The position numbers were made by a program, and so were the translations under genes. This document shows positions 18,127 to 41,832 of a stretch of DNA of 64,000 bases, in pieces (position 1 is the first letter of the stretch; every line of letters begins with the position of its first letter). The DNA is from Croceimicrobium hydrocarbonivorans (GTDB taxonomy: Bacteria > Bacteroidota > Bacteroidia > Flavobacteriales > Schleiferiaceae), in assembly GCF_014524565.1 (NCBI RefSeq), contig NZ_CP060139.1, positions 3,169,501 to 3,233,500 on the forward strand, read 5' to 3'. The notes beneath the pieces were generated by a model. That model did no database searches. It saw only the letters and a list, made by a program, of their open reading frames with translations, and was not told the origin of the DNA.

Positions 18127-19458
18127 ATGGCAAGAGAAAAACAAAACTTTGGAACCGAATCTCTCGGATTACTTCTTCGTAAACAAGCTATTCCTGCCTC
18201 GGTTGGCATTTTGGTGATGTCGGTGTACGGCATCGTAGACACCCTCTTTGTTGGGCGCTATGTAGGCTCATTAGCCATTGGCGCAATTACGGTTAACCTT
18301 CCCATTACCTTTTTGATTTCCAGCATTGGGATGGCCATTGGTATTGGGGGTGGGTCGGTGCTGTCTCGGGCTATGGGCGAAAATAATCATGGCAAGGTGC
18401 AGCGGACTTTCGGTAACCAGATAGCCCTTACTCTCAGCCTTTCGGTGCTGATTGTTCTCACGGCTTATTTCTTCCAAATTCCTTTATTGCGTTTATTTGG
18501 CGGTAAGGGAGCCGTTTTGGAACCAGCCCTGGCTTACTTTCAAATTTTACTACCAGCCATACCCGCTCTGGCCTGGTCGATGATGGCCAATAATGTGATT
18601 CGGGCCGAGGGCTATCCACGGATCGCCATGTTTACCATGATCATTCCGGCCCTCTCCAATATTATCCTCGATCCCATCTTTATTGTGGGGATGGATATGG
18701 GTATTGAAGGGGCCGCGTGGGCTACCTGTATATCCTATGTGGCTGGTGCTCTTTTTACCCTTATTTACTTTCTTTTTGGGCCCTCAGAGATGAGCTTAAG
18801 CTGGAGCTGCATCAAGCCTTCCTGGTCCTTAATCAAGGAGATCAGTAAACTGGGTTCTGTAACGCTGGCACGACAAGGCACTATTTCATTGCTAAGCGTG
18901 GTGCTCAATAATTCCTTATTTGCCTTTGGAGGCGAAATGGCTCTGGCTTCCTATGGTATTGTGAGTCGCTTATTGATGTTCGTGAACTTCCCGGTATTGG
19001 GAATTACCCAAGGTTATGTGCCCATTTTAGGCTATAACTATGGAGCAAGACTGTACGAAAGAGTTACCCAGATCAGTCGTCTGGCATTTTTCTGGTCTAC
19101 CGGAATTTCGATATTGATCTTTATCCTAATCATGACCTTAACAGAGCCCTTAGTGAGGGTCTTTACCGAAGATGCGGTTTTAATCGCCATGACGGTTCCC
19201 GCTTTGCGCTGGGTTTTTGCAGCAAATCCATTCTTACCCACATCCTTCTTGGGTTCCGCTTATTTCCAAGCTATTGGTCAAGCTCGAAGGGCCTTGATAT
19301 TGGCTTTAAGTAAGCAAGGCTTTTTCCTAATCCCGCTTATTCTAATTCTTCCGCATTGGATGGGAGTAGATGGTATATGGTGGTCCTTCCCCATAGCGGA
19401 TATGGGCTCGGCAGTATTAGCCTGGTGGCTCTTATCTAAAAATCCTTATATCCGATAA
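18127..19458 (+). CDS. MATE-family multidrug/cation exporter
   Basis: 443 residues with about 12 membrane helices in two homologous halves. Diagnostic tracts are PASVGILVMSVYGIVDTLFVG in the first helix region, GIGGGSVLSRAMGE, and WAVTCISYVAG-like WATCISYVAGALFTL. The second half has ITQGYVPILGYNYGA. These are hallmarks of MatE/DinF-type Na+- or H+-coupled efflux proteins of the inner membrane. It has its own promoter with a very short leader, and its stop codon abuts the stop of the convergent repeat-protein gene with no room for a terminator. Substrate unknown. Confidence 0.9.
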   Translation: MAREKQNFGTESLGLLLRKQAIPASVGILVMSVYGIVDTLFVGRYVGSLAIGAITVNLPITFLISSIGMAIGIGGGSVLSRAMGENNHGKVQRTFGNQIALTLSLSVLIVLTAYFFQIPLLRLFGGKGAVLEPALAYFQILLPAIPALAWSMMANNVIRAEGYPRIAMFTMIIPALSNIILDPIFIVGMDMGIEGAAWATCISYVAGALFTLIYFLFGPSEMSLSWSCIKPSWSLIKEISKLGSVTLARQGTISLLSVVLNNSLFAFGGEMALASYGIVSRLLMFVNFPVLGITQGYVPILGYNYGARLYERVTQISRLAFFWSTGISILIFILIMTLTEPLVRVFTEDAVLIAMTVPALRWVFAANPFLPTSFLGSAYFQAIGQARRALILALSKQGFFLIPLILILPHWMGVDGIWWSFPIADMGSAVLAWWLLSKNPYIR

Positions 19459-22400
19459 TTAAGGTTTTAGGCTGATTCGATAATTGTAATTGTAGCCATC
19501 ACTTTCAATACTGAGCAGGTAAATTCCTGCTGCCAATTGCGAAGTATTTAATTCAAGGGATTGGCCATTTAAGGTCCATTTTCCAACCGGACGCCCCGCC
19601 TGATCTATTAATTGTACCTGCGCTTGCATGAAGTTGTTGGCTTCAATTTTCAGGAAGTCCTGCGCGGGATTTGGATAAATTTCAAATGGGGAATAGGCAT
19701 TTTCGTCTAAGCCAATGGGACTTAAGTTTCCTGGACTGGCGACATCACCACCCAAAGAAACATAGGCACCTCGTAAACCATTTACTGCCCGACTGCTAAA
19801 ACTACCCAGGGTATCGAACTCTAAGCTATAGCCGCGCAGCACATCGCTACCTTGATAAGCGGAATAGGCTGCTAAATGACCTTGAGAATCAAAGAGGTGA
19901 ATAGCGTCACCCTGGGCGTTCAAAGAGGCAAAGCCATTGAAATCTCGATCGCGAATTAAAAGGGGGAGATTATTCCCATTTTGTTTCCAATCAAAAATCC
20001 AGGTGGCGGCGAATGGGGCCTGAACATCAGCGAGGATGGCTCTTTCGCCGGGGGCCAGGCTCCAGTTTCCATTAATGCTATGGGCTCCGCTTTGTCCGCT
20101 ACTATTATCCCAACTAAAACCATTCAAGCTGATCGGGATATTTCCATAGTTATAGATTTCAAACCAATCTCCTTGTATCGGCCAAGCCAATCCAGAATTG
20201 GGCATAATTTCACTGATACAGATAGCTACAGAATTGATGGGCGTAAAATCACTGTAAAAACGTGGACGGATAAAATAGCCCTCGGTATAAGGAAGGCTGG
20301 GGTCATTTTGACTTAAGACACCCGTCACTTCAAAGTTTCCAGTGATGGCATTTTGACCGTCAATATCCGTATCGGCATCAATGTGCAAACTCAGGGTATC
20401 AGGGCCATTGGTCATTAATAGGCTAGCTGAATTTCCACTAGCTGGCCAATTAGCTGGGTTTACAAAATGGAGAGGCCCTATTTTGATGATCTGGCTTTCT
20501 TCGCTATCGCGATAGGCGTTTACCAGGATAGGGTTTGGCAGAGGCTTGTTAGCACTGATCCATTTAAGACTATCAGCCATTAAAGTTAAGAGGCCATTGC
20601 TTTGAGCGATTTGCCCGATGAAAACAACTGAATCTCCCAAGCTGGGATTCGAGTAGCCGTTTAGGTCCAGAGGACTGCTAATATGCAGGGCATTAGAGCC
20701 ATCAGCGATGTGAAAATCATATCCGCTACCACCCTTGAAGTCAACACTATTCAACACGCCACTCAATCGGCAGTAAACACTGATAGAATCGGCTAAGCCA
20801 TTGGCTTGTTGGGATGATATATCTGCAATGCTGTAATTAGGGATACTGGGCACATCATTGTCGAGAATACTGATTAGCAGATTAGCCGGACTACCAATTT
20901 GCAATAGACCTTGACTGCTGCTTTGCAATTGGAAGCTAATTTGCTCTGTATTCTCCACTAGCAAATCATCCACGATTTGGAGGTCGAAATAGAGGGTATC
21001 CGAATTCGCTGGAATGGGAAGGTAAAGACTATCATTAGTAGCCAGGGGTAAAGTGCTGAAGTCGGAATTGCTCGCTCCATTTCCTTTAGAAATCAAAATC
21101 AAAGCGGTATCAGCACTGGCATTGCTGGGACTAAGTATTAATGCGATAGGGGTGGTTCCACTGGCTTCAGCTAAAATCAGATTGGAGAGCTCAAAACGAA
21201 TTCCCGGGCTGGGAGGAGGAGCCACACAAGCACCAGCCGTATCGCTGTTAAAGCAACGCACCGGAATAAGCGTATCGGAACTGAAGTTCACTAATTTATT
21301 AGCTCCGTTTTCCCAATTGGTCCCATTGCTGGAATGGAAACGAGCTTTGTATTCGAGCAGAGGTTCCGGGGCATAAATAGTGTAATCGTAAACCAGATCT
21401 CCATCCGGGTCGCTCATTAGGTAAGTGAGGTTAAGGTTGGGGTCCCAATTGCTGAATGCTCCGGCAATGTCTATAGAGTCGGTCAAGGGATTAAAACCGG
21501 TTACATAGTTCATATCAACTTGCAGACTAACAAAGAAGGTGTCGATTACCGGATTACAGGCTCCGAGGAAATCATTGCCAAAACAGCGTACTCCTACAAC
21601 CGTGTCCTTGTTGAAGTTGACTATTTTATTAGCGCCGTTTTCCCAGTTGGTAGAACCGCTTGAATGGTAACGAGCCTTGTATTCTAAGAGCGGTTCGGCA
21701 AAAGCAAATTGACCGGTATAGATAAGGTCTCCATCCGGATCGCTTAATTGATAGTTGGGATCATAAGCTCCATTCCAGTTGCTGAAAAAGCCTGCAATAT
21801 CTACGAAGTCAACGGCCGGATTAAAGCTTGCTTCATTCGATAAATCAACATTTAAGGTCACATTAAAAGTGTCAGGTAAATTGGGGCAGAGGCCCAAAGT
21901 ATCCGAACCAAAACAACGCACGTCAATAGTGGTATCCGACCAGAAAGTCACTGACTTATCCAAGCCTGGTTCCCAGTTCACCCCTTGGGCATTATGATAG
22001 CGGATTTTGTAGTCGAGGGTGGAATCGGGCAGATATAAAGTGATCTCCCAAATGCTGTCGGTATTAGCATCCGTGAGGGCATAAGCTGCATTATAGTTGG
22101 GATCCCAATTGCTAAATGAAGCGGCTAAGTCGATAGAATCTAAAGCCGGATTAAAGTCTTTTTCATTGCTGAGGTCCACTTGCAGAGTGACATAGAAGGA
22201 GTCAATTTGCGCAGGGCAGTTACCTAAAGTATCGCTGCTAAAACAACGCAGAGGAACTACAGTATCACCACTAAAGTTGACCGTCTTATTACCGCCCTGT
22301 TCCCAATTGGTGGTGCCGCCCGAATGGAAACGGGCTTTGTATTCTAAGATCGGTTCGGCAAAGGCGAATTGAGCTGTGTAGATCAGGTCATTGTCGGGAT

Positions 22401-25400
22401 CAGTCAAAGCATAGTTTGCATTGTAGTTGGGATCCCAATTGCTAAAGGCGCCGGCAATATCAACCTGATCGGAAGTCGGATCAAATCCAGCTTCGGCTGA
22501 TAGATCCACTTGTATAGTCACATTAAAAGTATCGGGAATATTGGGGCAAAGGCCCAAAGTATCCGAACCAAAGCAACGCACGGCTATGGTGGTATCCGAC
22601 CAGAAAGTTACCGATTTATCCAAGCCTGGTTCCCAGTTCACGCCATTGGCATTATGAAAGCGGATTTTATAATCGAGGGTAGAGTCGGGTAGGTAAAGAG
22701 TGATTTCCCAGATGCTGTCGGTATTGGCATCAGTTAAAGCATAGGTAGTATTATAATTAGGGTCCCAGTTGGTGAAGGCTGCTGCCAGATCGATAGAATC
22801 TAAAGCTGGATTAAAGTCCTTTTCATTACTGAGATCCACTTGCAAAGTGACATAAAAGGAATCAATTTGCGCATGGCAGTTCCCCAGAGTATCCGAACTA
22901 AAACAACGTACCGGAACTACAGTATCGCCATTAAAGTTGACCGTTTTATTGCCGCCTTGTTCCCAATTAGTGATGCCACTGGAGTGAAAGCGAGCTTTGT
23001 ATTCTAAGAGCGGTTCGGGGAAGGCAAATTGAGCGGTGTAGATCAAATCATTGTCAGGATCACTGAGTTGATAAGCTGCATTATAAGCCGGATCCCAATT
23101 GCTAAAAGCACCGGCGATATCTACCTGGTCAGTGCTGGGATCAAATCCAGCTTCAGCTGATAGATCTACTTGCAAAGTGACATTGAAAGTATCGGGAATA
23201 TTGGGACATAGGCCCAAGGTATCCGAACCAAAACAACGCACGTCAATGGTGGTATCGGACCAAAAAGTTACCGATTTATCCAAGCCTGGTTCCCAGTTCA
23301 CCCCATTGGCATTATGAAAGCGGATTTTGTAGTCCAGCGTAGAATCGGGTAGGTATAAGGTGATTTCCCAAATGCTATCGGTATTAGCATCCGTGAGGGC
23401 ATAAGCTACATTATAGTTGGGGTTCCAGTTGGTGAAACTGGCTGCCAAATCAATCGAGTCCAACAATGGATTAAAGTCCTTTTCATTACTAAGATCTACT
23501 TGCAGGGTGACATAGAAGGAATCAATTTGCGCCGGGCAGTTACCCAGGGTGTCGGAACCAAAACAACGAACCGGAACTACAGTATCGCCACTAAAGTTGA
23601 CGGTCTTATTGCCACCCTGTTCCCAATTAGTGATACCACCGGCATGGAAGCGGGCCTTGTATTCTAATATCGGTTCGGCAAAGGCAAATTGAGCGGTGTA
23701 GATCAGGTCATTGTCGGGATCACTGAGTTGATAAGCAGCATTATAAGCCGGATCCCAATTGCTAAAGTCACCGGCAATGTCTACTTGATCGGTAGTCGGA
23801 TCAAATCCAGCTTCGGCGGACAGATCTACTTGTACAGTCACATTGAAAGTATCGGGAATATTAGGGCAGAAGCCCAAGGTATCCGAACCAAAACAACGCA
23901 CGGCAATGGTGGTATCCGACCAAAAGGTCACCGACTTATCCAAGCCTGGTTCCCAGTTTACCCCATTGGCATTATGAAAACGGATTTTGTAATCTAGGGT
24001 AGAGTCAGGAAGGTAAAGAGTAATCTCCCAGATGCTGTCGGTATTGGCGTCGGAGAGGGCGTAAGCTGCATTATAGTTGGGGTTCCAGTTGGTGAAGCTG
24101 GCTGCCAAATCAATCGAGTCCAATAATGGATTAAAGTCCTTTTCGTTGCTGAGGTCTACTTGCAAAGTGACATAGAAGGAGTCAATTTGAGCCGGGCAGT
24201 TACCTAAAGTATCGCTGCTAAAACAACGCACTGGAACTACCGTATCGCCATTAAAGTTGACAATTTTATTAGCGCCCTGTTCCCAATTGGTAATGCCGCT
24301 GGAATGGAAACGAGCTTTGTATTCTAAGTTCGGTTCAGCAAAGGCAAATTGGGCGGTGTAGATCAGATCATTGTCGGGATCACTGAGTTGATATGCAGCA
24401 TTATAAGCCGGATCCCAATTACTAAAAGCACCAGCGATATCTACTAGATCGCTAGTCGGATCAAATCCAGCTTCGGCTGATAGATCCACTTGTATAGTCA
24501 CATTAAAAGTATCGGGAATAAAAGGGCAAAGACCCAGGGTATCTGAACCAAAACAACGCACGGCTATGGTGGTATCCGACCAGAAAGTCACTGACTTGTC
24601 CAGACCTGGTTCCCAGTTTACCCCATTGGCATTATGAAAACGGATTTTGTAATCTAGGGTAGAGTCAGGAAGGTAAAGAGTAATCTCCCAGATGCTGTCG
24701 GTATTGGCGTCGGAGAGGGCGTAAGCTGCATTATAGTTGGGGTTCCAGTTGGTGAAGCTGGCTGCCAAATCAATCGAGTCCAATAATGGATTAAAGTCCT
24801 TTTCGTTGCTGAGGTCTACTTGCAAAGTGACATAGAAGGAGTCAATTTGCGCCGGGCAGTAACCTAAAGTATCGCTGCTAAAACAACGCACTGGAACTAC
24901 CGTATCCCCATTAAAGTTGACGATTTTATTAGCGCCCTGTTCCCAATTGGTGATACCGTTTGAGTGGAAACGTGCTTTGTATTCTAAGAGCGGTTCAGGA
25001 AATGCAAATTGGGCGGTGTAGACCAAGTCATTGTCGGGATCAGTCAAAGCATAGTTTGCATTGTAGTTGGGATCCCAATTGCTAAAGTTGCCGGCAATAT
25101 CTACTTGATCGCTAGTCGGATCAAATCCAGCTTCAGCAGATAGATCCACTTGTACAGTCACATTAAAAGTATCGGGAATAAAAGGGCAGAGGCCCAATGT
25201 ATCCGATCCAAAACAACGCACGGCAATGGTGGTGTCTGACCAGAAAGTTACTGACTTATCCAAGCCCGGTTCCCAGTTCACCCCATTGGCATTATGAAAG
25301 CGGATTTTGTAATCGAGGGTAGAGTCAGGTAGGTAAAGAGTAATCTCCCAGATGCTATCGGTGTTAGCGTCAGTTAAAGCATAGGTAGTATTATAATTAG

Positions 25401-26550
25401 GGTCCCAGTTGGTGAAGGCTGCTGCCAGATCGATAGAATCTAAAGCTGGATTAAAGTCCTTCTCATTACTGAGATCCACTTGTAAAGTGACATAGAAGGA
25501 GTCAATTTGGGTAGGACAGTTGCCTAAAGTATCGCTGCTAAAACAACGCACTGGAACGATGGTATCTCTATTAAAGTTGATCGTCTTATTTCCACCCTGT
25601 TCCCAATTGGTGATACCGTTTGAGTGGAAGCGTGCTTTGTATTCTAAGAGCTGTTCGGCAAAGGCGAATTGAGCGGTGTAGACCAAGTCATTGTCGGGAT
25701 CGCTTAATTGATAAGCAGCATTATAAGCCGGATCCCAATTGCTAAAGGCACCGGCGATATCAACCTGATCAGTAGTGGGATTAAAAGTAGTATCAGCATT
25801 CATATCTATTTGAATGCTGACATTAAAAGTATCAGGTGGAATGGGGCAAGCTCCGAAGGTGTCGGCATTAAAGCAGCGTTGAGCCAGAACCGAATCTCGA
25901 TCAAAATTGATTTGTTTGTTGTTGCCGGTTTCCCATTGGGTGCCACCAGCATTATGATATCTAGCCTTGTATTCTAAAAGACCTTCTTCTAATCGAAAAG
26001 TACCGCTGTAAACCCCATCACCATCCGGATCACTCAAATTGTAATTCGAATCGTAATTGCCATTCCATGCATTGAATGGTCCGGCAATATCTACCGAATC
26101 CACACCCGGTGAAAAGGCCGCTTCCTTGTTCATATCTACATGAAAGCTTAAATTGAAGCTATCCGGTGCGCATACACAGAGGGTGTAACATATCTCAATC
26201 AAGGTATCCGAACTAAGGTTTAAGCCTCGGTTGCCATTTACGGAACAAGCTCCGGGAATAATTTCATCACTTCCCCAAGAATTACCATTGATAAACTTGT
26301 ACTCATAATTCCCATCGGGAATATTGACGCTTACGGAGTACACATTATTCCCTTGTGAACTTAGCGCAGTACTGGAAGGATCCCAATTAGAAGGGAAGCC
26401 TGCTGCCAGCTGGAAGTTTCCGGCAATATGGATACCAGCGGCATTAGGGCTAAAACCGCTTAGGTCCAGGCGGAATTCTACATTTCGGTTTTGGGCCTGT
26501 ACTTGAAACAAAAGACAGCAAAGTCCAATAAGGAGGATGGATTTTTTCAT
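19459..26550 (-). CDS. Giant T9SS-secreted protein with 15 starch-binding-like repeats, Calx-beta and lamin-tail domains
   Basis: 2363 residues, exported and probably surface-bound. In order: signal peptide (1-20); a divergent first beta domain (to about 135); 15 tandem repeats of about 110 residues to about 1775; a Calx-beta domain (to about 1900); an OB-fold-like region; a lamin-tail domain (starting CISEIMPNSG); and a T9SS type A tail with FEIYPNP. Each repeat reads like a CBM20/CBM48 fold (VDIAGAFSNWD, then DPDNDLIY, then LEYKARF) and ends with a conserved Cys pair in RCF-x5-7-C. No catalytic domain is visible, so it is probably an adhesin or glycan-binding protein. The carbohydrate-binding reading is by pattern only. 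Its stop abuts the MATE gene. Confidence 0.88.
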   Translation of the reverse strand: MKKSILLIGLCCLLFQVQAQNRNVEFRLDLSGFSPNAAGIHIAGNFQLAAGFPSNWDPSSTALSSQGNNVYSVSVNIPDGNYEYKFINGNSWGSDEIIPGACSVNGNRGLNLSSDTLIEICYTLCVCAPDSFNLSFHVDMNKEAAFSPGVDSVDIAGPFNAWNGNYDSNYNLSDPDGDGVYSGTFRLEEGLLEYKARYHNAGGTQWETGNNKQINFDRDSVLAQRCFNADTFGACPIPPDTFNVSIQIDMNADTTFNPTTDQVDIAGAFSNWDPAYNAAYQLSDPDNDLVYTAQFAFAEQLLEYKARFHSNGITNWEQGGNKTINFNRDTIVPVRCFSSDTLGNCPTQIDSFYVTLQVDLSNEKDFNPALDSIDLAAAFTNWDPNYNTTYALTDANTDSIWEITLYLPDSTLDYKIRFHNANGVNWEPGLDKSVTFWSDTTIAVRCFGSDTLGLCPFIPDTFNVTVQVDLSAEAGFDPTSDQVDIAGNFSNWDPNYNANYALTDPDNDLVYTAQFAFPEPLLEYKARFHSNGITNWEQGANKIVNFNGDTVVPVRCFSSDTLGYCPAQIDSFYVTLQVDLSNEKDFNPLLDSIDLAASFTNWNPNYNAAYALSDANTDSIWEITLYLPDSTLDYKIRFHNANGVNWEPGLDKSVTFWSDTTIAVRCFGSDTLGLCPFIPDTFNVTIQVDLSAEAGFDPTSDLVDIAGAFSNWDPAYNAAYQLSDPDNDLIYTAQFAFAEPNLEYKARFHSSGITNWEQGANKIVNFNGDTVVPVRCFSSDTLGNCPAQIDSFYVTLQVDLSNEKDFNPLLDSIDLAASFTNWNPNYNAAYALSDANTDSIWEITLYLPDSTLDYKIRFHNANGVNWEPGLDKSVTFWSDTTIAVRCFGSDTLGFCPNIPDTFNVTVQVDLSAEAGFDPTTDQVDIAGDFSNWDPAYNAAYQLSDPDNDLIYTAQFAFAEPILEYKARFHAGGITNWEQGGNKTVNFSGDTVVPVRCFGSDTLGNCPAQIDSFYVTLQVDLSNEKDFNPLLDSIDLAASFTNWNPNYNVAYALTDANTDSIWEITLYLPDSTLDYKIRFHNANGVNWEPGLDKSVTFWSDTTIDVRCFGSDTLGLCPNIPDTFNVTLQVDLSAEAGFDPSTDQVDIAGAFSNWDPAYNAAYQLSDPDNDLIYTAQFAFPEPLLEYKARFHSSGITNWEQGGNKTVNFNGDTVVPVRCFSSDTLGNCHAQIDSFYVTLQVDLSNEKDFNPALDSIDLAAAFTNWDPNYNTTYALTDANTDSIWEITLYLPDSTLDYKIRFHNANGVNWEPGLDKSVTFWSDTTIAVRCFGSDTLGLCPNIPDTFNVTIQVDLSAEAGFDPTSDQVDIAGAFSNWDPNYNANYALTDPDNDLIYTAQFAFAEPILEYKARFHSGGTTNWEQGGNKTVNFSGDTVVPLRCFSSDTLGNCPAQIDSFYVTLQVDLSNEKDFNPALDSIDLAASFSNWDPNYNAAYALTDANTDSIWEITLYLPDSTLDYKIRYHNAQGVNWEPGLDKSVTFWSDTTIDVRCFGSDTLGLCPNLPDTFNVTLNVDLSNEASFNPAVDFVDIAGFFSNWNGAYDPNYQLSDPDGDLIYTGQFAFAEPLLEYKARYHSSGSTNWENGANKIVNFNKDTVVGVRCFGNDFLGACNPVIDTFFVSLQVDMNYVTGFNPLTDSIDIAGAFSNWDPNLNLTYLMSDPDGDLVYDYTIYAPEPLLEYKARFHSSNGTNWENGANKLVNFSSDTLIPVRCFNSDTAGACVAPPPSPGIRFELSNLILAEASGTTPIALILSPSNASADTALILISKGNGASNSDFSTLPLATNDSLYLPIPANSDTLYFDLQIVDDLLVENTEQISFQLQSSSQGLLQIGSPANLLISILDNDVPSIPNYSIADISSQQANGLADSISVYCRLSGVLNSVDFKGGSGYDFHIADGSNALHISSPLDLNGYSNPSLGDSVVFIGQIAQSNGLLTLMADSLKWISANKPLPNPILVNAYRDSEESQIIKIGPLHFVNPANWPASGNSASLLMTNGPDTLSLHIDADTDIDGQNAITGNFEVTGVLSQNDPSLPYTEGYFIRPRFYSDFTPINSVAICISEIMPNSGLAWPIQGDWFEIYNYGNIPISLNGFSWDNSSGQSGAHSINGNWSLAPGERAILADVQAPFAATWIFDWKQNGNNLPLLIRDRDFNGFASLNAQGDAIHLFDSQGHLAAYSAYQGSDVLRGYSLEFDTLGSFSSRAVNGLRGAYVSLGGDVASPGNLSPIGLDENAYSPFEIYPNPAQDFLKIEANNFMQAQVQLIDQAGRPVGKWTLNGQSLELNTSQLAAGIYLLSIESDGYNYNYRISLKP
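21230..26150 (-). repeat. 15-unit tandem repeat array, about 330 bp per unit, alternating A/B (660 bp period)
   Basis: The central 12 units alternate between type A (QVDLSAEAGFDP start) and type B (QVDLSNEKDFNP start). Equivalent DNA segments recur every 660 bases, for example near 22201, 22861, 23521, 24181, 24841 and 25501. Bases 23945-24189 are identical to 24605-24849 (245 bp), and 22731-22821 are identical to 25371-25461 (91 bp, four periods apart). Boundaries of the array are approximate. Confidence 0.9.
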
Positions 26551-26676: not shown

Positions 26677-27849
26677 ATGAAGCGAATCCTTTTCTTAATC
26701 CTCCTCTCCAGTCAGCTGCTTTCAGCGCAAAGACCCTTGAGTGCCCAGGCCGAAATAAGCCTGATAACTTGCGGACCGGGGCAGAATGAATTATACTCAG
26801 CTTTTGGGCATTCTGCGGTTCGAGTTAAGGATCCGGCACAGAATATAGACTGGGTATTTAATTATGGGATTTTTGATTTCGATCAACCTAATTTCTACCT
26901 CAATTTCGCCCGCGGTCATTTACTATACATGTTAGCGGTGAGCGATTGGCAACGCTTTCAGTATGGCTATCGGCGAGAAGGTCGCTACGTTCATGAGCAG
27001 GTTTTAGATTTGGATAGCCTTCAGGCGCAAGCCTATTTTGAATTTCTATGGACTAATGCCCGCCCGGAAAATCGCGATTACTACTATGATTATTTCTATG
27101 ATAATTGTGCCACCCGCGTGCGTGATGGACTGGAGCTTGCAATGGGAGAGGGGCAGGTGAAGTTTAAGGATTCCACTTTTTATCAACCATCCTTAAGTAT
27201 TCGCGAATTATGCGATGAATATTTGGAATATCAGCCTTGGGGCGATTTGGGTATTGATCTCTGCCTGGGATTGCCGATGGATAAACAAGCTGATGCTCGT
27301 ATTGAGATGTTTTTACCGGATTTGCTAGAAGCGGCTTTCGCCGAAGCACTCATAAAGGATGAGCAAGGAACAAGGCCATTGGTTAAGGAAAGCAGAGTGG
27401 TTTATCCCCAAATTGCCAAGCCCCAAAAGTCTTGGTGGCGACCCTTGGTCTTTTTTAGTGCTCTATTTGTCATTGGAGGTCTACTAAGCTGGCTTTATTT
27501 TAAAAAGCCAAAAACCTTGCGACTTTTCGATGCCCTGGTTTTTGGTATCAGCGGTTTATTGGGATTGCTATTACTAATATTATGGTTGTTTACGGATCAT
27601 AAGGCTGCAGCCTATAATTTCAATATTCTCCTTTTTTTACCCACCCATCTGCTGCTGATCCCATCGATTCTTAGAGGGAAATTTGCAGCATGGATGATGG
27701 CTTACCTGAAGTTCATGCCCATTTTTTATGCGGTATTGTTGCTGACCTGGTTTTGGTTACCTCAGCAATTGCATATGGGCTTAATGCCTTTTGCTATGCT
27801 ATTAATGCTGCGAACCTGGCATTTATCCCGCCATGGGAAATCGGCTTAA
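26677..27849 (+). CDS. DUF4105 (Lnb N-terminal-like) membrane protein
   Basis: 390 residues: a signal peptide (MKRILFLILLSSQLLSAQ), a periplasmic DUF4105 domain to about 240, then a stretch of five or so membrane helices near 250-385. The domain shows LITCGPGQNELYSAFGHSAVRV, NYGIFDFDQPNFYLNFARG and YDYFYDNCATRVRD. The Cys and His pattern in SAFGHSA and DNCATR suggests a papain-like cysteine hydrolase fold of the NlpC/P60 kind; the catalytic role is inference. The gene is divergent from the giant repeat protein, and its end overlaps the convergent Omp85-like gene by 4 bases. Confidence 0.83.
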   Translation: MKRILFLILLSSQLLSAQRPLSAQAEISLITCGPGQNELYSAFGHSAVRVKDPAQNIDWVFNYGIFDFDQPNFYLNFARGHLLYMLAVSDWQRFQYGYRREGRYVHEQVLDLDSLQAQAYFEFLWTNARPENRDYYYDYFYDNCATRVRDGLELAMGEGQVKFKDSTFYQPSLSIRELCDEYLEYQPWGDLGIDLCLGLPMDKQADARIEMFLPDLLEAAFAEALIKDEQGTRPLVKESRVVYPQIAKPQKSWWRPLVFFSALFVIGGLLSWLYFKKPKTLRLFDALVFGISGLLGLLLLILWLFTDHKAAAYNFNILLFLPTHLLLIPSILRGKFAAWMMAYLKFMPIFYAVLLLTWFWLPQQLHMGLMPFAMLLMLRTWHLSRHGKSA

Positions 27850-29255: not shown

Positions 29256-29568
29256 GGAATCTGTTTTGAGCCGTAAAGTTACAATTTATTCAGCTTTCCA
29301 TCTCCCTCTAAAATTGAAGTCTTTCCATTGATGGCTCTAGCATCGCTTTAAAAATTCCAATAATTGATTTCCATCAGAATCTAAGGGAATACTTAACGAA
29401 GAATTAATACAAAAATTATAATGATTCTAAATATTGTTAACTGCTGTTTGTCAAGTATTTAAAAGCTCGATAAATATTTGTTATCAACATTTATAGGCTT
29501 GTCCCTTCGTAGGCATTTTCAGAATAAACTTGAATCAATACATTAGTGGTGCGAATAAATACTTTATT
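29256..29568. other. AT-rich divergent intergenic region
   Basis: About 313 bases between the small GNAT-like gene and the first giant paralogue. On the minus strand TAACTTTA at 29274-29281 is one base off TAnnTTTG and could be the GNAT promoter. On the plus strand I see only weak candidates such as TAGGCTTG at 29494-29501. No ORF of note or terminator hairpin was found. A TTG at 29530 is in frame with the giant gene, but the signal peptide begins at the ATG at 29569. Confidence 0.4.
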
Positions 29569-32500
29569 ATGAGACACGTAGTACTATCTCTTTTCCTTAC
29601 GATGTCTTGGCTTTTCTCTGTAGGCCAGGGCACGATTACAACGAGTCCGCCATTGACTCCAAACAATGGCTCTAACGGTATATCCTTGAGGGTTGAGGCG
29701 ACCTCCCCAATTGAGATTACCGGCATTTCCAACATTTTTGCCAGCGGTGCATCCAGTGCACATGTTTGGGTACGTCAAGGCGGGGTAACTCCCGGAGGTA
29801 CTCCGAGCATTTCAGCGGCAAATGGTTGGACTCAAGTGGTTACCAGTGCTCCTTTAACCGGTGCAACGGGAACCAATTTGGTAACTATTCCATTTAATGG
29901 AGTAAAGATTCCGGTTCCTTCTGGAGGTTCTATCGGTATCTTTATCGAAACTGAAACCGGAACTTCTCGTTATCAAACCGGTACAGCTTCTGATCAGGTG
30001 ATTTTCACCGATGGAACCATGACGGTAAATGTTGCGGATTCTGTAGCCTATGGCGGTCCTGCAACAAGTCCGACCAACAATCCCCGTCGTTTTGTAGGTG
30101 ATGTTACTTATGCATTATCTGTAACTGGTAACTGTACTCCTTTTACCGGATTTGCAATCGACAGTATTAGTGGCACTGCTGCTAAAGTGAACTGGACGCC
30201 TGGAACCGGAAACACCGGTTACAAATTGGAGTACGGTCCTGCAGGTTTTACGCCTGGAACCGGTACTGTGGTTAGTGGTACTTACCCTACTAGTCCTGTA
30301 ACTCCTCCAGTGATTTTATCTGGTTTGAGTGCCAGCACTACTTATGATGTATACTTCGAGGAGTATTGCAACACCGGAACCGACACTGTTGGTTTTCCAA
30401 CTCCACAAAGCTTTACCACTACTAAATTATGTGGTGCGCCAACTGGTTTTGCTGAATCTAACCTTACTTCTAACTCGGTTGATGTAAACTGGTCGCAAGC
30501 CGGTTCTTATACCGAGGCTTGGGTAATGTGGGGTCCTGCCGGAACTGCTCCTGGTAGTGCCGGATGGGATGTAGACACCATTATGTCTCCTACCATGACC
30601 TACACCATTGCGGGTTTAAGCCCATCTACTGGATATGATATCTATTTAGCTACTAATTGCGGTGGTGGTAATGGTGTATCTGATACCGTTGGTCCATTGC
30701 AAATTGTAACTCCTATTCAAGGACCACAAGGTTTGAACTGTACCACTGGTCAGCCTGGTTTAATCTTCCAGGATGATTTCGAAACTCAAGTGGGTTGGAC
30801 CGGAGATTTCGGTACCGGAACCACTGCTTCGAACTGGAACTACCACTCAGGTCCTACCGGATCAACTAACACAGGTCCTACGGGAGCACACAGCGGAACT
30901 AATTATTTATATACTGAGGTTTCCGGAACATCGGCTGGAACCCATATTGAGGCGATTACCCCACGTATTGATTTGAGTTCTTCATTTAATAATGCTGAGC
31001 TTTCTTTTTGGTTGCATGCTTATGGTGCGAACATCGACACCATTAAAGTTCAGGTTGGTGGTTCAGCTACAGGACCCTGGAATACTGTGTTCACCAGAGT
31101 AGGTCAGGTTCAAACAGCCAATGCAGATCCCTGGCAGCAGGTGGGTGTGAATCTGGATTCTTATGTAGGTTCGGCAATTCACATTCGTTTCTTGGTTATT
31201 CATGGTACCAGCTTTGATGGTGACGTATCAATCGACTTGGTAGAGGTTAGCTCTTGTCAGACTTGTCCTTTCCCAGGCACTCCTACTTTAACTTATATCT
31301 CTAGTGATTCTGCTGCCTTTAGCTGGAGCGGCGCAGGATATGATTATGATGTAAACTGGGGTCCAAAAGGATTTAGCCAAGGTTCGGCTTCAGCCGTTTA
31401 CGACAGTACCACTACCAATAGCATTGGTATCGGTGGTTTAAGTGGCAATACAGCTTATGATTTATACATCCGTAACGATTGCTCGGATTCAGCCAATGGA
31501 ACCAGTGGTTGGGTAGGTCCGCTTACATTCGTAACCTTATGTAATGCTTTAACGGCTCCTTATTATAATGATTTCGATACCGACTCATTAAACCAGGTGC
31601 CTATCTGCTGGGACAATGCCATCATTGGCGGTACCAGCCCAACATTGCCTAATGCAGATGTTGAAGTTCCAAGTACGACTTATGGTGCGGTTTCTTCACC
31701 CAATGTGGTTCGTTTCTATAACTACAACACTGATACCATTTGGTTAATTTCTCCTGAGTTCTCTGATATGCCAGTGGGTGATAAGCGAGTAAACTTCTTC
31801 GCTATGACCACTTCTACAGCCACAAATCACACTTTGGAGATCGGAACCATGAGCAATATTTCTGATCGCTCAACTTATACTCCTATTGATACTGTTACTT
31901 TAGGTAACAATTATCAGCAGTACTTTGTAGACTTAACTACCGCTAATAATTACAATGGAACCGATACCTATGTGGTATTGAATCACACCGGTCCAGATTT
32001 CAGTACTTATTACATTGACAATTTTAGCTACGAAGTAATTCCAGCTTGTGCACCTCCATTAGTTACTAGCTTAGGTGTAAGCGGCGTAGGTCCTACTACA
32101 GCCAATACTTTCTGGGGTAGTGGATCTGATGGTGATAAGACCTATATCGAGTGGGGAACACCTGGCTTTACGCCTGGATCCGGTGTATTTGTAGATTCTG
32201 TTCCCGGAACCACAGATACTTATCTAATCCAAGGTCTTGCTGCTCAAACTACTTATGAGTTCTATATTCAGGATTCCTGTTTAACTGACGGCTTAAGCCC
32301 ATGGGTAGGTCCATTTACCTTTACTACTGCATGTAATATTATCTCGGCTCCAATCTTCGAAGATTTCGACGGTACTACCTGGACTGCCAGTGGTAACAAT
32401 GCCGGTAATATTTTAGATCCATGTTGGAGTGCTGATCCGGATGTGAGCAATGGTGGTGAGCCATTTAAATGGATTCCACGTTCAACCGGTCCAACCAGTG

Positions 32501-35151
32501 GTAATGGTCCTTTGAGTGATGTAACCGGTGGTAACTTTATGTATGTAGAGTCCTCAGGTTCTGCCGTGGGTGATACCGCTTATTTATATACTCCAATTGT
32601 GGATGTAAGTACATTAGTGGCACCAGCCTTATACTTCTTCCAACACAGATTCTATACTACTACTAGTCCCCCCGCCGATATGAACATTGAGGTATCCAAT
32701 GATTTGGGTGCTACTTGGACCAATGTGTATTCTATTACAGGAAACACTCAAAACTCCAGTTCTGATCCTTGGGTAGATGAATTGGTAAACTTGCCACAGT
32801 TTGCGGGTGATACTATCCAGATTCGTTTCGTACAAATTGGCGTTGGATGTTGTGGTGATGCAGCTATTGATTCTGTTGCTATCGCTGAGGCTCCATCTTG
32901 TCCTGAACCTGCAAACGTTCAGGCCACTAACCTCACTGATACTTCGGCTGTATTAAGCTGGAATGGTGCAATTAGCGCTAATACCAATCAGGTATGGATC
33001 GGACCACGTGGTTTCTATCAAGGAACAACTACTACCACCGGTACTCAATTGTATGTTAATGCTAACTCTTTAGTATTAGATACTTTAAGTCCTGCTACTT
33101 GTTGGGAGTTCTTAGTTCGTTCTGCTTGTGGACCTGGTGATAGTTCTGCTTGGATCGGACCAATTGAATTCTGTACCAATGCTTGTAAGCCTAGTGAGCA
33201 ATGCTGGTTCCCCGTTGATTTGGAAGATACCTTCGGTGACGGATGGAACGGTGGTATTGTAACCGTGGTTCAAAATGGGGTTCCTGTAGGTGATCTTGGT
33301 GGAAGCTTTACCACTGGTAACCTATATCCGGATTCTATTTTATTATGTGATCTTCAGAATACGGTATTCGTGTTATCTACTGCCGGTGGATGGCCATCAG
33401 AAATTGGAATAACTGTTTATGCACCTTATGGTGGACAGGTTGGTCAATATATTGCAAATGGAAGCACTGCGGCTGGAGATACCTTGGTAGCTATTATTTC
33501 TCAGTGTACTCCTCCTACTTGTCCACAACCAACTAACTTGGTGGTGAACAGTGTTACCGGTACCACAGCTAATGTGGGCTGGACTGCTGGTGGCTCAGGT
33601 TCTGCCTGGGAAGTAGAATACAGTACTGGTACATTCCTCCCTGGAGCCGGTACCCGGATTTCTGCACCTACCAATCCATTTACCATTACCAGTTTGAGTG
33701 GTTCTACTAACTACAACTTCTATGTTCGTGAAATTTGTGGACCTGGAGATACCTCTGTATGGTCTGGTCCATTAAACTTCGCAACTGCTTGTGTAACTGT
33801 AATGGCTCCTTACTTCACCGATTTCGAAACAATTCCTATTGGATTAGGTACCGGAACTCCTGCAACTTGGGGTAACTGCTGGTATGCGGAAACCTTAAAT
33901 GGTGCTACCGTTCGTTGGGAATCTGAAGATGCTACTGGTGCTAATGAGAACTCATTGGATACAGGCCCCTTCACTGATGCTACCATGCATCCAAATGCGG
34001 GTGGTACTTATATGTATATTGAGACTTCAACTTCAGGAACCGGTCCTGCGGAGTTAACTTCTCCAATGATTAATTTCAGCAATTTGGTTCAACCAGAATT
34101 GAGCTTTGCTTACCATATGTATGGTGCAAGCATCAATAAATTGGTGATCCAAGCTGAGGATATCAATGGTAACCGTATTGCAATTGATAGTTTGATTGGT
34201 CAACAGCAAACTGCTCAATCAGATAGTTTCTTTATCCGTAACATTGATTTGAGCACCTTGCCTCAAACTACCTATGCTTTTGTGTTCCAAGGATTCCGTG
34301 GTACTACCTTTACTGGTGATATCTCTATCGACGATGTAAGAGTAGATGAGCCAGGAGCTACTGGCTGTGCTGCACCATTGAATGCAATGGCTACCGCTAA
34401 TGTAGGATGTGATAGTGTGGAAGTAGACTGGACTTCAGGAACTGGTGGCTCTATCATTGAGTACGGTCCTGCTGGATTTACTCCTGGTACCGGAACCTTT
34501 ACCAATGTGGTAACTGCTCCTTATACCATTTATGGATTAACTCCTGGTACCGCTTACGATGTTTGGGTTGCTGATACTTGTTCTGGTGATACCAGTTCTT
34601 ACGCTCCGATTAATGTAACTACTGCCAGCGGACCACTTCCAGTGGCTACTATTGGCTCAGTAAATAGCACCATCGTTGGAAACCAATTTATCGTTTACCT
34701 TGATGCAGCAGGTTCTACTAATGCTACCAGCTACACTTGGGACTTCGGTAATGGTGTAACCGGAAGCGGACAAATGGATACCGTTGTATTCTTAGGAAAC
34801 GGTACTTACACCGTAGTACTTACTGCAACTAACGGTTGTGGTAGCGATACTGCCAGCTATGAGGTTTACGTGAATATTGGTCTGGATGAAAATCCATTGG
34901 CTAATAACTTGAACGTATTCCCTAACCCTGCTAACCATAAGGTTAATATCAGCTTCCGCGAAGTGGGAAGTGGTGATGTTCAAATTCGTTTACGCGACGC
35001 TCAAGGTCGTGAGGTGATGTTCATCAATGACCGTATGCAAAGCGGAGTTTACAGCAAAGATTTAGATGTTAGCAATTTGGCTAGAGGAATGTACATGGTA
35101 GAAGTGAAGTCCGGTGGACTTACTGCCCATCGTCGCCTGAGCATTCGCTAA
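29569..35151 (+). CDS. Giant T9SS-secreted FN3/MAM protein, paralogue 1
   Basis: About 1860 residues. In order: signal peptide (RHVVLSLFLTMSWLFSV); a shared N-terminal beta module (about 20-187); two FN3 domains (189-390); a MAM domain (391-565); then alternating FN3 and choice-of-anchor-J/MAM units; a DTFGDGWNGG domain near 1220; another FN3-MAM-FN3 set; a PKD domain (about 1690-1768); and a T9SS type A tail from 1769 with LNVFPNPA. FN3 units repeat the tract EYGPAGFTPGTGT. Domains are joined by Cys-containing linkers. No catalytic site is recognised, so it is probably an adhesive or matrix protein. The ATG at 29569 is preferred because it opens the signal peptide. A terminator follows the stop. 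Confidence 0.9.
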   Translation: MRHVVLSLFLTMSWLFSVGQGTITTSPPLTPNNGSNGISLRVEATSPIEITGISNIFASGASSAHVWVRQGGVTPGGTPSISAANGWTQVVTSAPLTGATGTNLVTIPFNGVKIPVPSGGSIGIFIETETGTSRYQTGTASDQVIFTDGTMTVNVADSVAYGGPATSPTNNPRRFVGDVTYALSVTGNCTPFTGFAIDSISGTAAKVNWTPGTGNTGYKLEYGPAGFTPGTGTVVSGTYPTSPVTPPVILSGLSASTTYDVYFEEYCNTGTDTVGFPTPQSFTTTKLCGAPTGFAESNLTSNSVDVNWSQAGSYTEAWVMWGPAGTAPGSAGWDVDTIMSPTMTYTIAGLSPSTGYDIYLATNCGGGNGVSDTVGPLQIVTPIQGPQGLNCTTGQPGLIFQDDFETQVGWTGDFGTGTTASNWNYHSGPTGSTNTGPTGAHSGTNYLYTEVSGTSAGTHIEAITPRIDLSSSFNNAELSFWLHAYGANIDTIKVQVGGSATGPWNTVFTRVGQVQTANADPWQQVGVNLDSYVGSAIHIRFLVIHGTSFDGDVSIDLVEVSSCQTCPFPGTPTLTYISSDSAAFSWSGAGYDYDVNWGPKGFSQGSASAVYDSTTTNSIGIGGLSGNTAYDLYIRNDCSDSANGTSGWVGPLTFVTLCNALTAPYYNDFDTDSLNQVPICWDNAIIGGTSPTLPNADVEVPSTTYGAVSSPNVVRFYNYNTDTIWLISPEFSDMPVGDKRVNFFAMTTSTATNHTLEIGTMSNISDRSTYTPIDTVTLGNNYQQYFVDLTTANNYNGTDTYVVLNHTGPDFSTYYIDNFSYEVIPACAPPLVTSLGVSGVGPTTANTFWGSGSDGDKTYIEWGTPGFTPGSGVFVDSVPGTTDTYLIQGLAAQTTYEFYIQDSCLTDGLSPWVGPFTFTTACNIISAPIFEDFDGTTWTASGNNAGNILDPCWSADPDVSNGGEPFKWIPRSTGPTSGNGPLSDVTGGNFMYVESSGSAVGDTAYLYTPIVDVSTLVAPALYFFQHRFYTTTSPPADMNIEVSNDLGATWTNVYSITGNTQNSSSDPWVDELVNLPQFAGDTIQIRFVQIGVGCCGDAAIDSVAIAEAPSCPEPANVQATNLTDTSAVLSWNGAISANTNQVWIGPRGFYQGTTTTTGTQLYVNANSLVLDTLSPATCWEFLVRSACGPGDSSAWIGPIEFCTNACKPSEQCWFPVDLEDTFGDGWNGGIVTVVQNGVPVGDLGGSFTTGNLYPDSILLCDLQNTVFVLSTAGGWPSEIGITVYAPYGGQVGQYIANGSTAAGDTLVAIISQCTPPTCPQPTNLVVNSVTGTTANVGWTAGGSGSAWEVEYSTGTFLPGAGTRISAPTNPFTITSLSGSTNYNFYVREICGPGDTSVWSGPLNFATACVTVMAPYFTDFETIPIGLGTGTPATWGNCWYAETLNGATVRWESEDATGANENSLDTGPFTDATMHPNAGGTYMYIETSTSGTGPAELTSPMINFSNLVQPELSFAYHMYGASINKLVIQAEDINGNRIAIDSLIGQQQTAQSDSFFIRNIDLSTLPQTTYAFVFQGFRGTTFTGDISIDDVRVDEPGATGCAAPLNAMATANVGCDSVEVDWTSGTGGSIIEYGPAGFTPGTGTFTNVVTAPYTIYGLTPGTAYDVWVADTCSGDTSSYAPINVTTASGPLPVATIGSVNSTIVGNQFIVYLDAAGSTNATSYTWDFGNGVTGSGQMDTVVFLGNGTYTVVLTATNGCGSDTASYEVYVNIGLDENPLANNLNVFPNPANHKVNISFREVGSGDVQIRLRDAQGREVMFINDRMQSGVYSKDLDVSNLARGMYMVEVKSGGLTAHRRLSIR

Positions 35152-35174
35152 TCATCCTTAAATACTTGGATTTC

Positions 35175-35203
35175 AACCCCGGCCTCGTGCCGGGGTTTTT
35201 ATT
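35175..35203 (+). terminator. Intrinsic terminator after paralogue 1
   Basis: A 9-bp stem (AACCCCGGC paired with GCCGGGGTT), a 5-base loop and a T run. It lies 24 bases after the stop and before the next gene's start, so each giant gene should be its own transcription unit. Confidence 0.88.
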
Positions 35204-35267
35204 TTCCATACACTTCTCGTAACTTCCCCACGGGTACTATTTGTTATTAATCTATAAAATCTATTCT

Positions 35268-38200
35268 ATGAGGAAGTTACTACTCCTTTGTAGTTACCTT
35301 GCTGCTATATCCCTATATGGCCAAGGGACTATCATCACGAGTCCACCATTGACTCCTAACAATGGCTCCACCGGAATATCCTTACGGGTTGAGGCGACCT
35401 CCCCAATTGAGATTACCGGCTTAACTAATGTTTTTTCCACCGGCGCCACTAGTGCTACTGTTTGGGTTCGTCAAGGCGGGGTAACTCCCGGAGGAACTCC
35501 AAACGTTTCTACTGCAAACGGTTGGACTCAGGTTGTGGTAAATGCTCCAATTACTGGCGCAAACAGCACCGCTCTGAATAACATTCCCTTTGGTGGGGTA
35601 AAGATTCCTGTTCCTTCAGGAGGTTCGATCGGTATCTTTATTGAAGGCACCTCTGGTTCTTCTCGTTATCAAACGGGTACGGCTTCTGATCAGGTGATTT
35701 TTACCGACGGAACCATGACGGTAAACCTTGCAGATTCTGTGGCTTATGGTGGTCCTGCATCTAGTCCATCCAACAATCCACGTCGTTTTGTTGGCTCTGT
35801 AACTTATGCATTGTCTGTAACCGGCAACTGTACCCCATTTACCGGATTTGCAATCGACAGTATTAGCGGTACTGCTGCTAAAGTGAACTGGACTCCTGGA
35901 ACCGGAAACACCGGTTACAAATTAGAGTACGGTCCTGTAGGATTTACGCCTGGAACTGGTACTGTGGTTAGTGGTACTTATCCTACCAGTCCAGTAAGTC
36001 CTCCAGTGATTTTATCTGGTTTGAGTGCTAGCACTACCTATGATGTTTACTTCGAAGAGTATTGCAACACTGGAACCGATACGGTTGGTTTCCCAACTCC
36101 ACAAAGCTTCACTACCACTAAATTATGTGGTGCACCAACTGGCTTTGCTGAATCTAACCTTACTTCCAATACGGTAGATGTAAACTGGTCTCAGGCCGGT
36201 TCTTATACTGAGGCTTGGGTGATGTGGGGTCCAACTGGAACCACTCCTGGTAGTGCCGGATGGGATGTAGACACCATTATGTCTCCAACCATGACTTACA
36301 CCATTTCGGGTTTAAGCCCATCTACAGGATATGATATCTATTTAGCTACCAATTGCGGTGGTGGAAATGGAGTTTCTGATACGGTTGGGCCGATCCAAAT
36401 TGTGACTCCAATTCAGGGACCACAAGGTTTGAACTGTACCACTGGTCAGGCTGGTTTAATCTTCCAGGATGATTTTGAAACTCAATTAGGTTGGACCGGA
36501 AACTTTGGGTCTGGAACCACCGCTTCAAACTGGAACTACCACTCAGGTCCTACCGGATCTACTGCTACTGGTCCTACCGGAGCTCACAGTGGAAATACCT
36601 ATTTATATACGGAGGTTTCCGGTACGGCTAGCGGAACCCATATAGAAGCCATCTCTCCTCGCATCGATCTAAGTTCTTCTTTTAATCATGCTGAATTGGC
36701 TTTCTGGTTACATGCCTATGGAGCCAATATCGACACTATAAAGGTTCAGGTTGGTGGCTCTGCCACTGGTCCCTGGAATACGGTATTTACTAGAGTTGGA
36801 CAAGTTCAAACAGCCAATGCAGATCCATGGCAGCAAGTAGGGGTAAACCTAGATGCTTATGTAGGTTCTGCAATTTACTTGCGCTTTTTAACGGTGCATG
36901 GCACTAGCTTTAACGGTGATGTTTCTATCGATTTGGTAGAAGTAAGTTCATGTCAAACCTGTCCTTTCCCATCAGCACCAACGGTGAATTATGTTTCTAG
37001 CGATTCTGCCTACTTTACTTGGAATGGAACCGGCTATGATTACGATGTAAACTGGGGACCACGTGGCTTTACCCAAGGATCACCATCCAGTTTCTTTGAT
37101 AGTACTTCGGTGGCCAGTATTGGTATTGGAGGTTTAAGTGGCAACACCGCATACGATATCTACATCCGTAACGATTGTTCGGATTCGGCTAATGGAACCA
37201 GCGGATGGGTTGGACCTGTGCCTTTTGTAACATTATGTAATCCACTTACAGCTCCTTACACTAATAATTTTGATAGCGATTCTATTGATGCACCCCCCAT
37301 TTGTTGGGATAATGCATTAATTGGTGGAACTAGTGCAACCTTGCCTAATGCCGATGTGGAGGTGCCAAGTACAACCTATCCTCCAATATCATCACCCAAT
37401 GTCGTACGATTCTATAATTACAATACCGATACGGCATGGCTGATTAGTCCACAGTTTAGTGATCTTTCTGTTGGAGATAAGCGGATTAGTTTCTATGCTA
37501 TGACTACCACTACTGCTACTCCTAATCAGCTAGTAGTAGGTACTGTCGCTAGCCCAGGAGATCGTTCCAGCTATGTAGCAATTGACACTATTGATATACA
37601 GCGAAACTATGCTCAATATGTAGTGGATCTTACCGTAGCCAATGGTTACAATGGAAGCCATGAATTTGTAGTGCTAGAGCACGCTGGTCCAGATTTCCGC
37701 ACCTATTATATTGATGATTTTGTGTACGAGCAAATTCCAGCTTGTAACCCTCCATTAAGCAGCACCTTAGGTGTTAATTATGTAACTGCCACTACCGCAG
37801 AAGTATTCTGGGGTTCAGGTTCGGATGGCGATACTACCTGGATTGAATGGGGCCTACCCGGCTTTACTCCTGGTGCTTCCAATTTAGGACGTATTGCGGT
37901 AAGCGGTGCTCAAGACAGTGCCTTGATTAGTGGCTTGATGGCCGAAACCGACTATGAATTCTACATTCAAGATAGCTGCTACGGAAATGGTAATAGTCCT
38001 TATGTAGGTCCGGTTGCTTTCCGCACTGCTTGTGCCATTGTAGCACCAGCGGTTCTTCCGCTGAGTGATGGTTTTGAGAATTATTCCAATGGCCCAACTT
38101 TTAGTGCCACTGCCTTCTTATGTAATCCATCTTATTACTGGACTTTCGAGCCAGGTAATACTAATGGTAGAGGACGTTTACAAGCAAATAGCGCATTTTA

Positions 38201-41720: not shown

Positions 41721-41743
41721 TAGATTTTATCTACTGAAATTTT

Positions 41744-41771
41744 AACCCCGGCCTTGTGTCGGGGTTTTTTT
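41744..41771 (+). terminator. Intrinsic terminator after paralogue 2
   Basis: Stem AACCCCGGC/GTCGGGGTT with one G-T pair, a 5-base loop and a run of seven T. It is close in sequence to the terminator after paralogue 1, so it was probably copied with the gene. Confidence 0.85.
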
Positions 41772-41832
41772 ATTGCTTGTTGTTGAGTAAATTGGGGCTC
41801 TCTATTATTCTGTATTAACCTATTTCTTTACA

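Follow-up and report, generated by a model that had tools for sequence, protein, structure and literature searches.

Evidence for sequence exchange between same-type units of an alternating two-domain repeat array in a secreted protein of Croceimicrobium hydrocarbonivorans

We analyzed a 64,000-nt stretch (the window) of the Croceimicrobium hydrocarbonivorans genome, which is a single 4.04-Mb contig, and found that a gene for a 2363-aa secreted repeat protein carries 15 tandem units, most of them alternating between two types, A and B. Judging from the sequence comparisons below, it is quite likely that the array recombines and that the recombining partners are units of the same type. The gene, its units and its conserved flanks are as follows.

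18127..19458, plus strand: MatE-family transporter, the conserved left flank (Pfam and locus comparison)
19459..26550, minus strand: 2363-aa secreted repeat protein (single open reading frame and its translation)
26164..26490, minus strand: divergent N-terminal CBM48/X25-like unit, a sixteenth, outside the alternation (X25_BaPul_like 4e-11, CBM_48 6e-5)
25834..26163, minus strand: U1, end unit with a positional orthologue in G001 and G003 (alignment and unit tree)
25504..25833, minus strand: U2, A type, mosaic with a position-specific start and columns 86-125 identical to U8
25174..25503, minus strand: U3, B type, carrying the 92-bp tract 25370-25461
24844..25173, minus strand: U4, A type
24514..24843, minus strand: U5, B type, carrying 239 nt of the tract 24605-24849
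24184..24513, minus strand: U6, A type
23854..24183, minus strand: U7, B type, carrying 239 nt of the tract 23945-24189
23524..23853, minus strand: U8, A type
23194..23523, minus strand: U9, B type
22864..23193, minus strand: U10, A type
22534..22863, minus strand: U11, B type, carrying the 92-bp tract 22730-22821
22204..22533, minus strand: U12, A type; U11-U12 resembles U3-U4 over ~660 bp (92% and 89%)
21874..22203, minus strand: U13, B type, sharing an exact 23-nt stretch with U4 and U12, both A type (borderline, global P 0.054)
21544..21873, minus strand: U14, divergent A-like end unit with a positional orthologue in G001 (unit tree)
21214..21543, minus strand: U15, end unit with a positional orthologue in G001 and G003 (unit tree)
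26677..27849, plus strand: Lnb-family protein, the conserved right flank (Pfam and locus comparison)

In order, the protein comprises a signal peptide, the divergent CBM48/X25-like unit, the 15-unit array, a Calx-beta-like/OB-like stretch, a lamin-tail domain and a T9SS sorting tail. The CBM clan, LTD and Por_Secre_tail were assigned from Pfam, and the signal, Calx-beta and OB names were given by eye. Por_Secre_tail (aa 2291-2354, 6e-12) is the type A C-terminal T9SS sorting domain. No catalytic domain was recognised in the 2363 aa. Pfam matches to RNA_pol_N, DUF7122 and T6SS_Tle1-like were dismissed, since no single stretch passes alone and the scores were sums of weak matches over the repeats. 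The giant gene looks as if two architectures found across the family had been fused, with amplification of one domain: its N-terminal part is similar to a 571-aa T9SS protein that has counterparts family-wide, and its C-terminal part to a 1243-aa protein whose end is a similar stretch.

Each of the units U1-U15 is exactly 330 bp (110 aa) long, and together they run from 26163 down to 21214 (aa 130-1779), with zero indels between them and a frame that stays open over the whole 7 kb. The 12 units U2-U13 alternate perfectly between A and B with a period of 660 bp, just as the sequence-only reading had described for 12 of the 15; U1, U14 and U15 are the outliers. Within U2-U13, A units are 80-89% identical to one another at the nucleotide level (78-92% aa), B units 81-96% (92-99% aa), and A units to B units 51-57% (43-52% aa). 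Adjacent units of the window array share 44-56% of their amino acids and next neighbors inside the alternation 78-98%; the same ranges in the array of a second genome, G003, are 43-55% and 83-100%. Tandem Repeats Finder reported no repeat in the array, its longest period of 500 being below the 660-bp period and adjacent 330-bp units being only ~54% alike. A Cys pair of the CF..D...G.C type, C97 and C106, is invariant in every unit (21214-26163) and suggests a small disulfide loop beside the linker.

Among 88 genomes of the family, the array was present only in G000, G001 and G003. G001 is a draft relative, taken as the MAG Flavobacteriales bacterium UBA7878, the nearest named record, and its assembly breaks off within the array from both sides. 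G003, a single-contig genome of the same genus, has a syntenic 3505-aa open frame between the MatE and Lnb genes with 25 units, the interior ones alternating A-B with a period of 663 bp in their own A and B versions. All of its A units are 111 aa long versus 110 aa for all those of the window, a difference of one extra codon in every G003 A unit. The alternation here and this 25-unit orthologue support the earlier suggestion that the array grew by a two-domain unit. The sequence-only reading had expected copy number to vary between strains; the counts of 15 and 25 units are a difference between species, each represented by one genome. In G002 and G004, two other species of the genus, the MatE and Lnb genes lie ~80 bp apart with no gene between them (G002, L046; G004, L045). 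In rpoB comparisons, G003 grouped with G002 and G004 (84/89) and the window genome with G001 (88/85), with modest support; given these groupings, a single gain of the giant gene and its later loss in the G002/G004 line would be the simplest history.

All units were aligned at the nucleotide level. The segment 23945-24189 in U7 is exactly identical over 245 bp to 24605-24849 in U5, and includes 239 nt of B unit and 6 nt of the adjoining A unit; 22730-22821 in U11 is exactly identical to 25370-25461 in U3, four periods away. Both identities had been proposed beforehand and both were exact, the second measuring 92 bp rather than 91. The B units between U3 and U11 (U5, U7 and U9), and also U13, are only 74-75% identical to the 92-bp tract there, in line with the claim that the intervening units carry a different version. 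When the order of polymorphic sites was permuted in the manner of GENECONV, with sites treated as exchangeable, the two tracts exceeded background similarity with global P values of 0.002 (U5/U7) and 0.003 (U3/U11), and the A-unit tracts shared by U2/U8 (40 bp) and U6/U12 (60 bp) gave P < 0.001. Cross-type exchange, A to B, was borderline in the same framework (P 0.05-0.07) and is not claimed; exact A-B matches reach no more than 23-25 nt, and the 23-nt stretch that U13 shares with U4 and U12 is a possible case of rare A-to-B exchange.

A PHI-like test found nearby sites to be less incompatible than permuted ones in the A units (P 0.021) and B units (P 0.001) of the window array and in the A units (P 0.001) and B units (P 0.002) of the G003 array. 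These compatibility tests reject clonal divergence of the units in both arrays. Unit U2 is a direct case of sub-unit exchange. Over nt 30-60 its identity is 80% with the positional orthologue in G001 versus 57-63% with the other window A units, while over nt 90-120 it matches U8 at 100% and that orthologue at only 70%. Mantel tests for co-duplication of adjoining A and B units, based on their similarity matrices, found no significant correlation, and unit similarity showed no significant decay with distance along the array. Both results are expected if sub-unit exchange scrambles unit histories, and exchange has probably scrambled the duplication history of this array. The sequence-only reading had proposed exchange between units, and the tract tests, the compatibility tests in two arrays and the U2 mosaic all argue for it.

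Apart from a few young, identical tracts, most of the array is old. Window units are separated by a median dS of 0.82 for A and 1.10 for B, above the dS that separates U1 (0.65) and U14 (0.60) from their G001 orthologues and about equal to that of U15 (0.88); in these orthologous end units of sister species, 41-52% of synonymous sites differ. The exchange had been called recent, which holds for the few identical tracts and fails for most unit pairs, with their dS of ~0.8-1.1. It had also been ascribed to gene conversion or unequal crossing-over. After one recent 660-bp duplication, similarity should extend over 660 bp or more, whereas at the same offset identity falls to 86-89% on both sides of the U5/U7 tract within 200-300 bp; for this 245-bp tract, conversion is a better fit than one simple unequal crossing-over event. 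The likeness of U3-U4 to U11-U12 could be an older whole-pair copy, and the G003 array contains a 495-bp identical stretch exactly one period apart. Conversion and unequal crossing-over probably both act in these arrays.

We propose that A and B arose by duplication and divergence of an ancestral CBM-like domain. Growth would afterwards have proceeded by A-B pairs, because DNA identity between A and B is only ~50-60% and the two would rarely recombine, while A-A and B-B partners (80-96%) do. Intragenic homologous recombination, presumably RecA-type, would act mainly as short-tract gene conversion, with occasional unequal crossing-over by whole 660-bp periods, and would keep same-type units alike within a species as both types drift between species. 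The end units would be too divergent to take part and so would remain orthologous. Given the short exact A-B matches and the 43-56% amino acid identity of neighbors, recombination would be confined nearly to same-type units, and the array could lengthen or shorten only in steps of a full A-B pair.

A tree of 44 units agrees with this proposal. All B units stand apart from the rest (100/100), which places the A/B split before the species split; A units group by species, and B units likewise. The end units, by contrast, sort by position: U1 falls with the first unit of the other species, U15 with the last, and U14 with its counterpart in G001. The outermost units remain orthologous by position. 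The tree alone is no proof of exchange, since the same topology would arise if an ancestor with one or a few A-B pairs had been amplified in each lineage by unequal crossing-over with little later exchange; the proof comes from the mosaics. Such independent expansion would explain why A and B units cluster by species, and the 495-bp stretch in G003, one period apart, is what a recent duplication would leave. We nevertheless regard it as rather improbable, because sub-unit mosaics occur in both arrays, the identity flanking the 245-bp tract drops on both sides at the same offset, and the A and B matrices are uncorrelated, unlike those of pairs copied whole and then diverging.

Two further explanations concern the identical tracts themselves. 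Functional constraint on the protein is strong in the B units (dN/dS ~0.04), but the B part of the U5/U7 tract has no difference at any of ~48 synonymous sites, while B pairs on average differ at 53%. Protein constraint therefore does not explain the tract, and constraint at the codon level would need to hold in two of the six B units only; selection alone is already contradicted and scarcely credible. Collapse or a chimeric join of repeats during assembly must be considered at a locus where the draft G001 breaks at both contig ends and which is evidently hard to assemble. Against an artefact, the longest exact in-register repeat of the window array is just 245 bp and other same-type pairs mostly show differences at 11-20% of their sites. 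In addition, no stop interrupts 7 kb of reading frame, and the independent single-contig genome G003 has the same architecture. Collapse or duplication by the assembler is distinctly unlikely on these grounds. Exchange between same-type units remains the reading that we prefer.

The units are best described as predicted starch-binding-type domains of the CBM20/48/53 clan. An A-B doublet matched Pfam CBM_20 with 30.6 bits (cut-off 23.3), and other doublets matched CBM53, CBM_48 and X25; single units mostly had no match in Pfam, and sequence-only PDB searches with the doublet and with A and B profiles gave none. An AlphaFold model of one doublet had moderate confidence (pLDDT 76, pTM 0.60). Foldseek matched this model to CGTases and to the CBM20 of STBD1 (TM 0.71-0.72 on the target), the best single-domain fold match of the moderate-confidence model being the STBD1 CBM20 with maltotetraose. 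W33, K66 and W77 are invariant across the aligned A and B units, and position 82 holds N in A units and D in B units; these are candidate CBM20 binding-site residues, and a literature search for CBM20 site residue numbers found none. The N/D difference at position 82 may possibly reflect a difference in binding between A and B. The starch-binding class is also favored by related units elsewhere in the family: a 2525-aa T9SS-tailed protein in G010 (L034 923-8497) carries a GH13 amylase domain and, behind it, six X25/CBM48-like stretches, which we read as an independent array of the same domain class. The giant protein shares Pfam matches, a CBM20-like predicted fold and the conserved Trp, Lys and Trp with CBM20/CBM48/CBM53 domains and Bacteroidota T9SS amylases, and differs from them in having no recognised catalytic domain, 15-25 copies and a conserved Cys pair per unit. 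We infer glucan binding and a surface location for it, and the 15- or 25-domain product is probably a multivalent binder of alpha-glucan or another polysaccharide, at or outside the cell.

As a recombining repeat array, the system is of a known kind and resembles the variable-length Periscope Proteins (SasG, Aap, Rib, Sgo_0707; PMC8201768, PMC9704523). It shares with them an exported protein made up of many folded domains in tandem, DNA-level recombination of repeats, and an array length that differs between genomes, here between species (15 versus 25). SasG and Aap also repeat a two-domain unit, E-G5; here, unlike in Periscope Proteins, A and B are paralogues of one fold, and export is by T9SS rather than by Gram-positive wall anchoring. 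The 15 similar units, with their predicted CBM20-like fold, form a tandem array in a protein that has a T9SS tail and is presumably retained at the surface. Neighboring domains of large multidomain proteins usually share <50% identity, a rule that Periscope Proteins break (PMC8201768, PMC9704523). The 43-56% of neighbors here lies close to that level; highly identical adjacent domains are absent from the two arrays studied here, in which only the two-domain units are alike between neighbors. Two-domain units are reported to be those most often duplicated in domain repeats, with duplication taking place mid-array (Bjorklund et al. 2006, PMC1553488), both as here; the present case differs in being bacterial, with direct evidence of later tract exchange.

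A tentative and somewhat doubtful idea is that the two-type alternation is a device that permits length change by recombination while adjacent domains stay divergent, with selection keeping A and B apart. Amino acid identity of ~50% would then both limit misfolding between neighbors and block A-B recombination, and A-A and B-B exchange would keep each type alike. Neighbor divergence as protection from misfolding has been proposed for multidomain proteins (PMC8201768, PMC4660218). Neighbors stay ~50% identical in two separately evolving arrays, so that this idea can be tested against length change driven by recombination. What merits a specialist's time is that two paralogous domain types are homogenised in parallel with neighbors that differ this much: this would be a clean natural example of intragenic recombination acting on both types as the end units escape, in an environmental bacterium rather than in a pathogen adhesin.

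Elsewhere in the window, 29530-48507 contains three tandem giant paralogous genes (1873, 2159 and 2224 aa) with FN3, MAM, PKD and T9SS domains, which share 75-79% DNA identity over long N-terminal stretches. A 300-bp stretch of these genes (29963-30262 versus 35659-35958) is 89% identical and is possibly a product of conversion between the paralogues.
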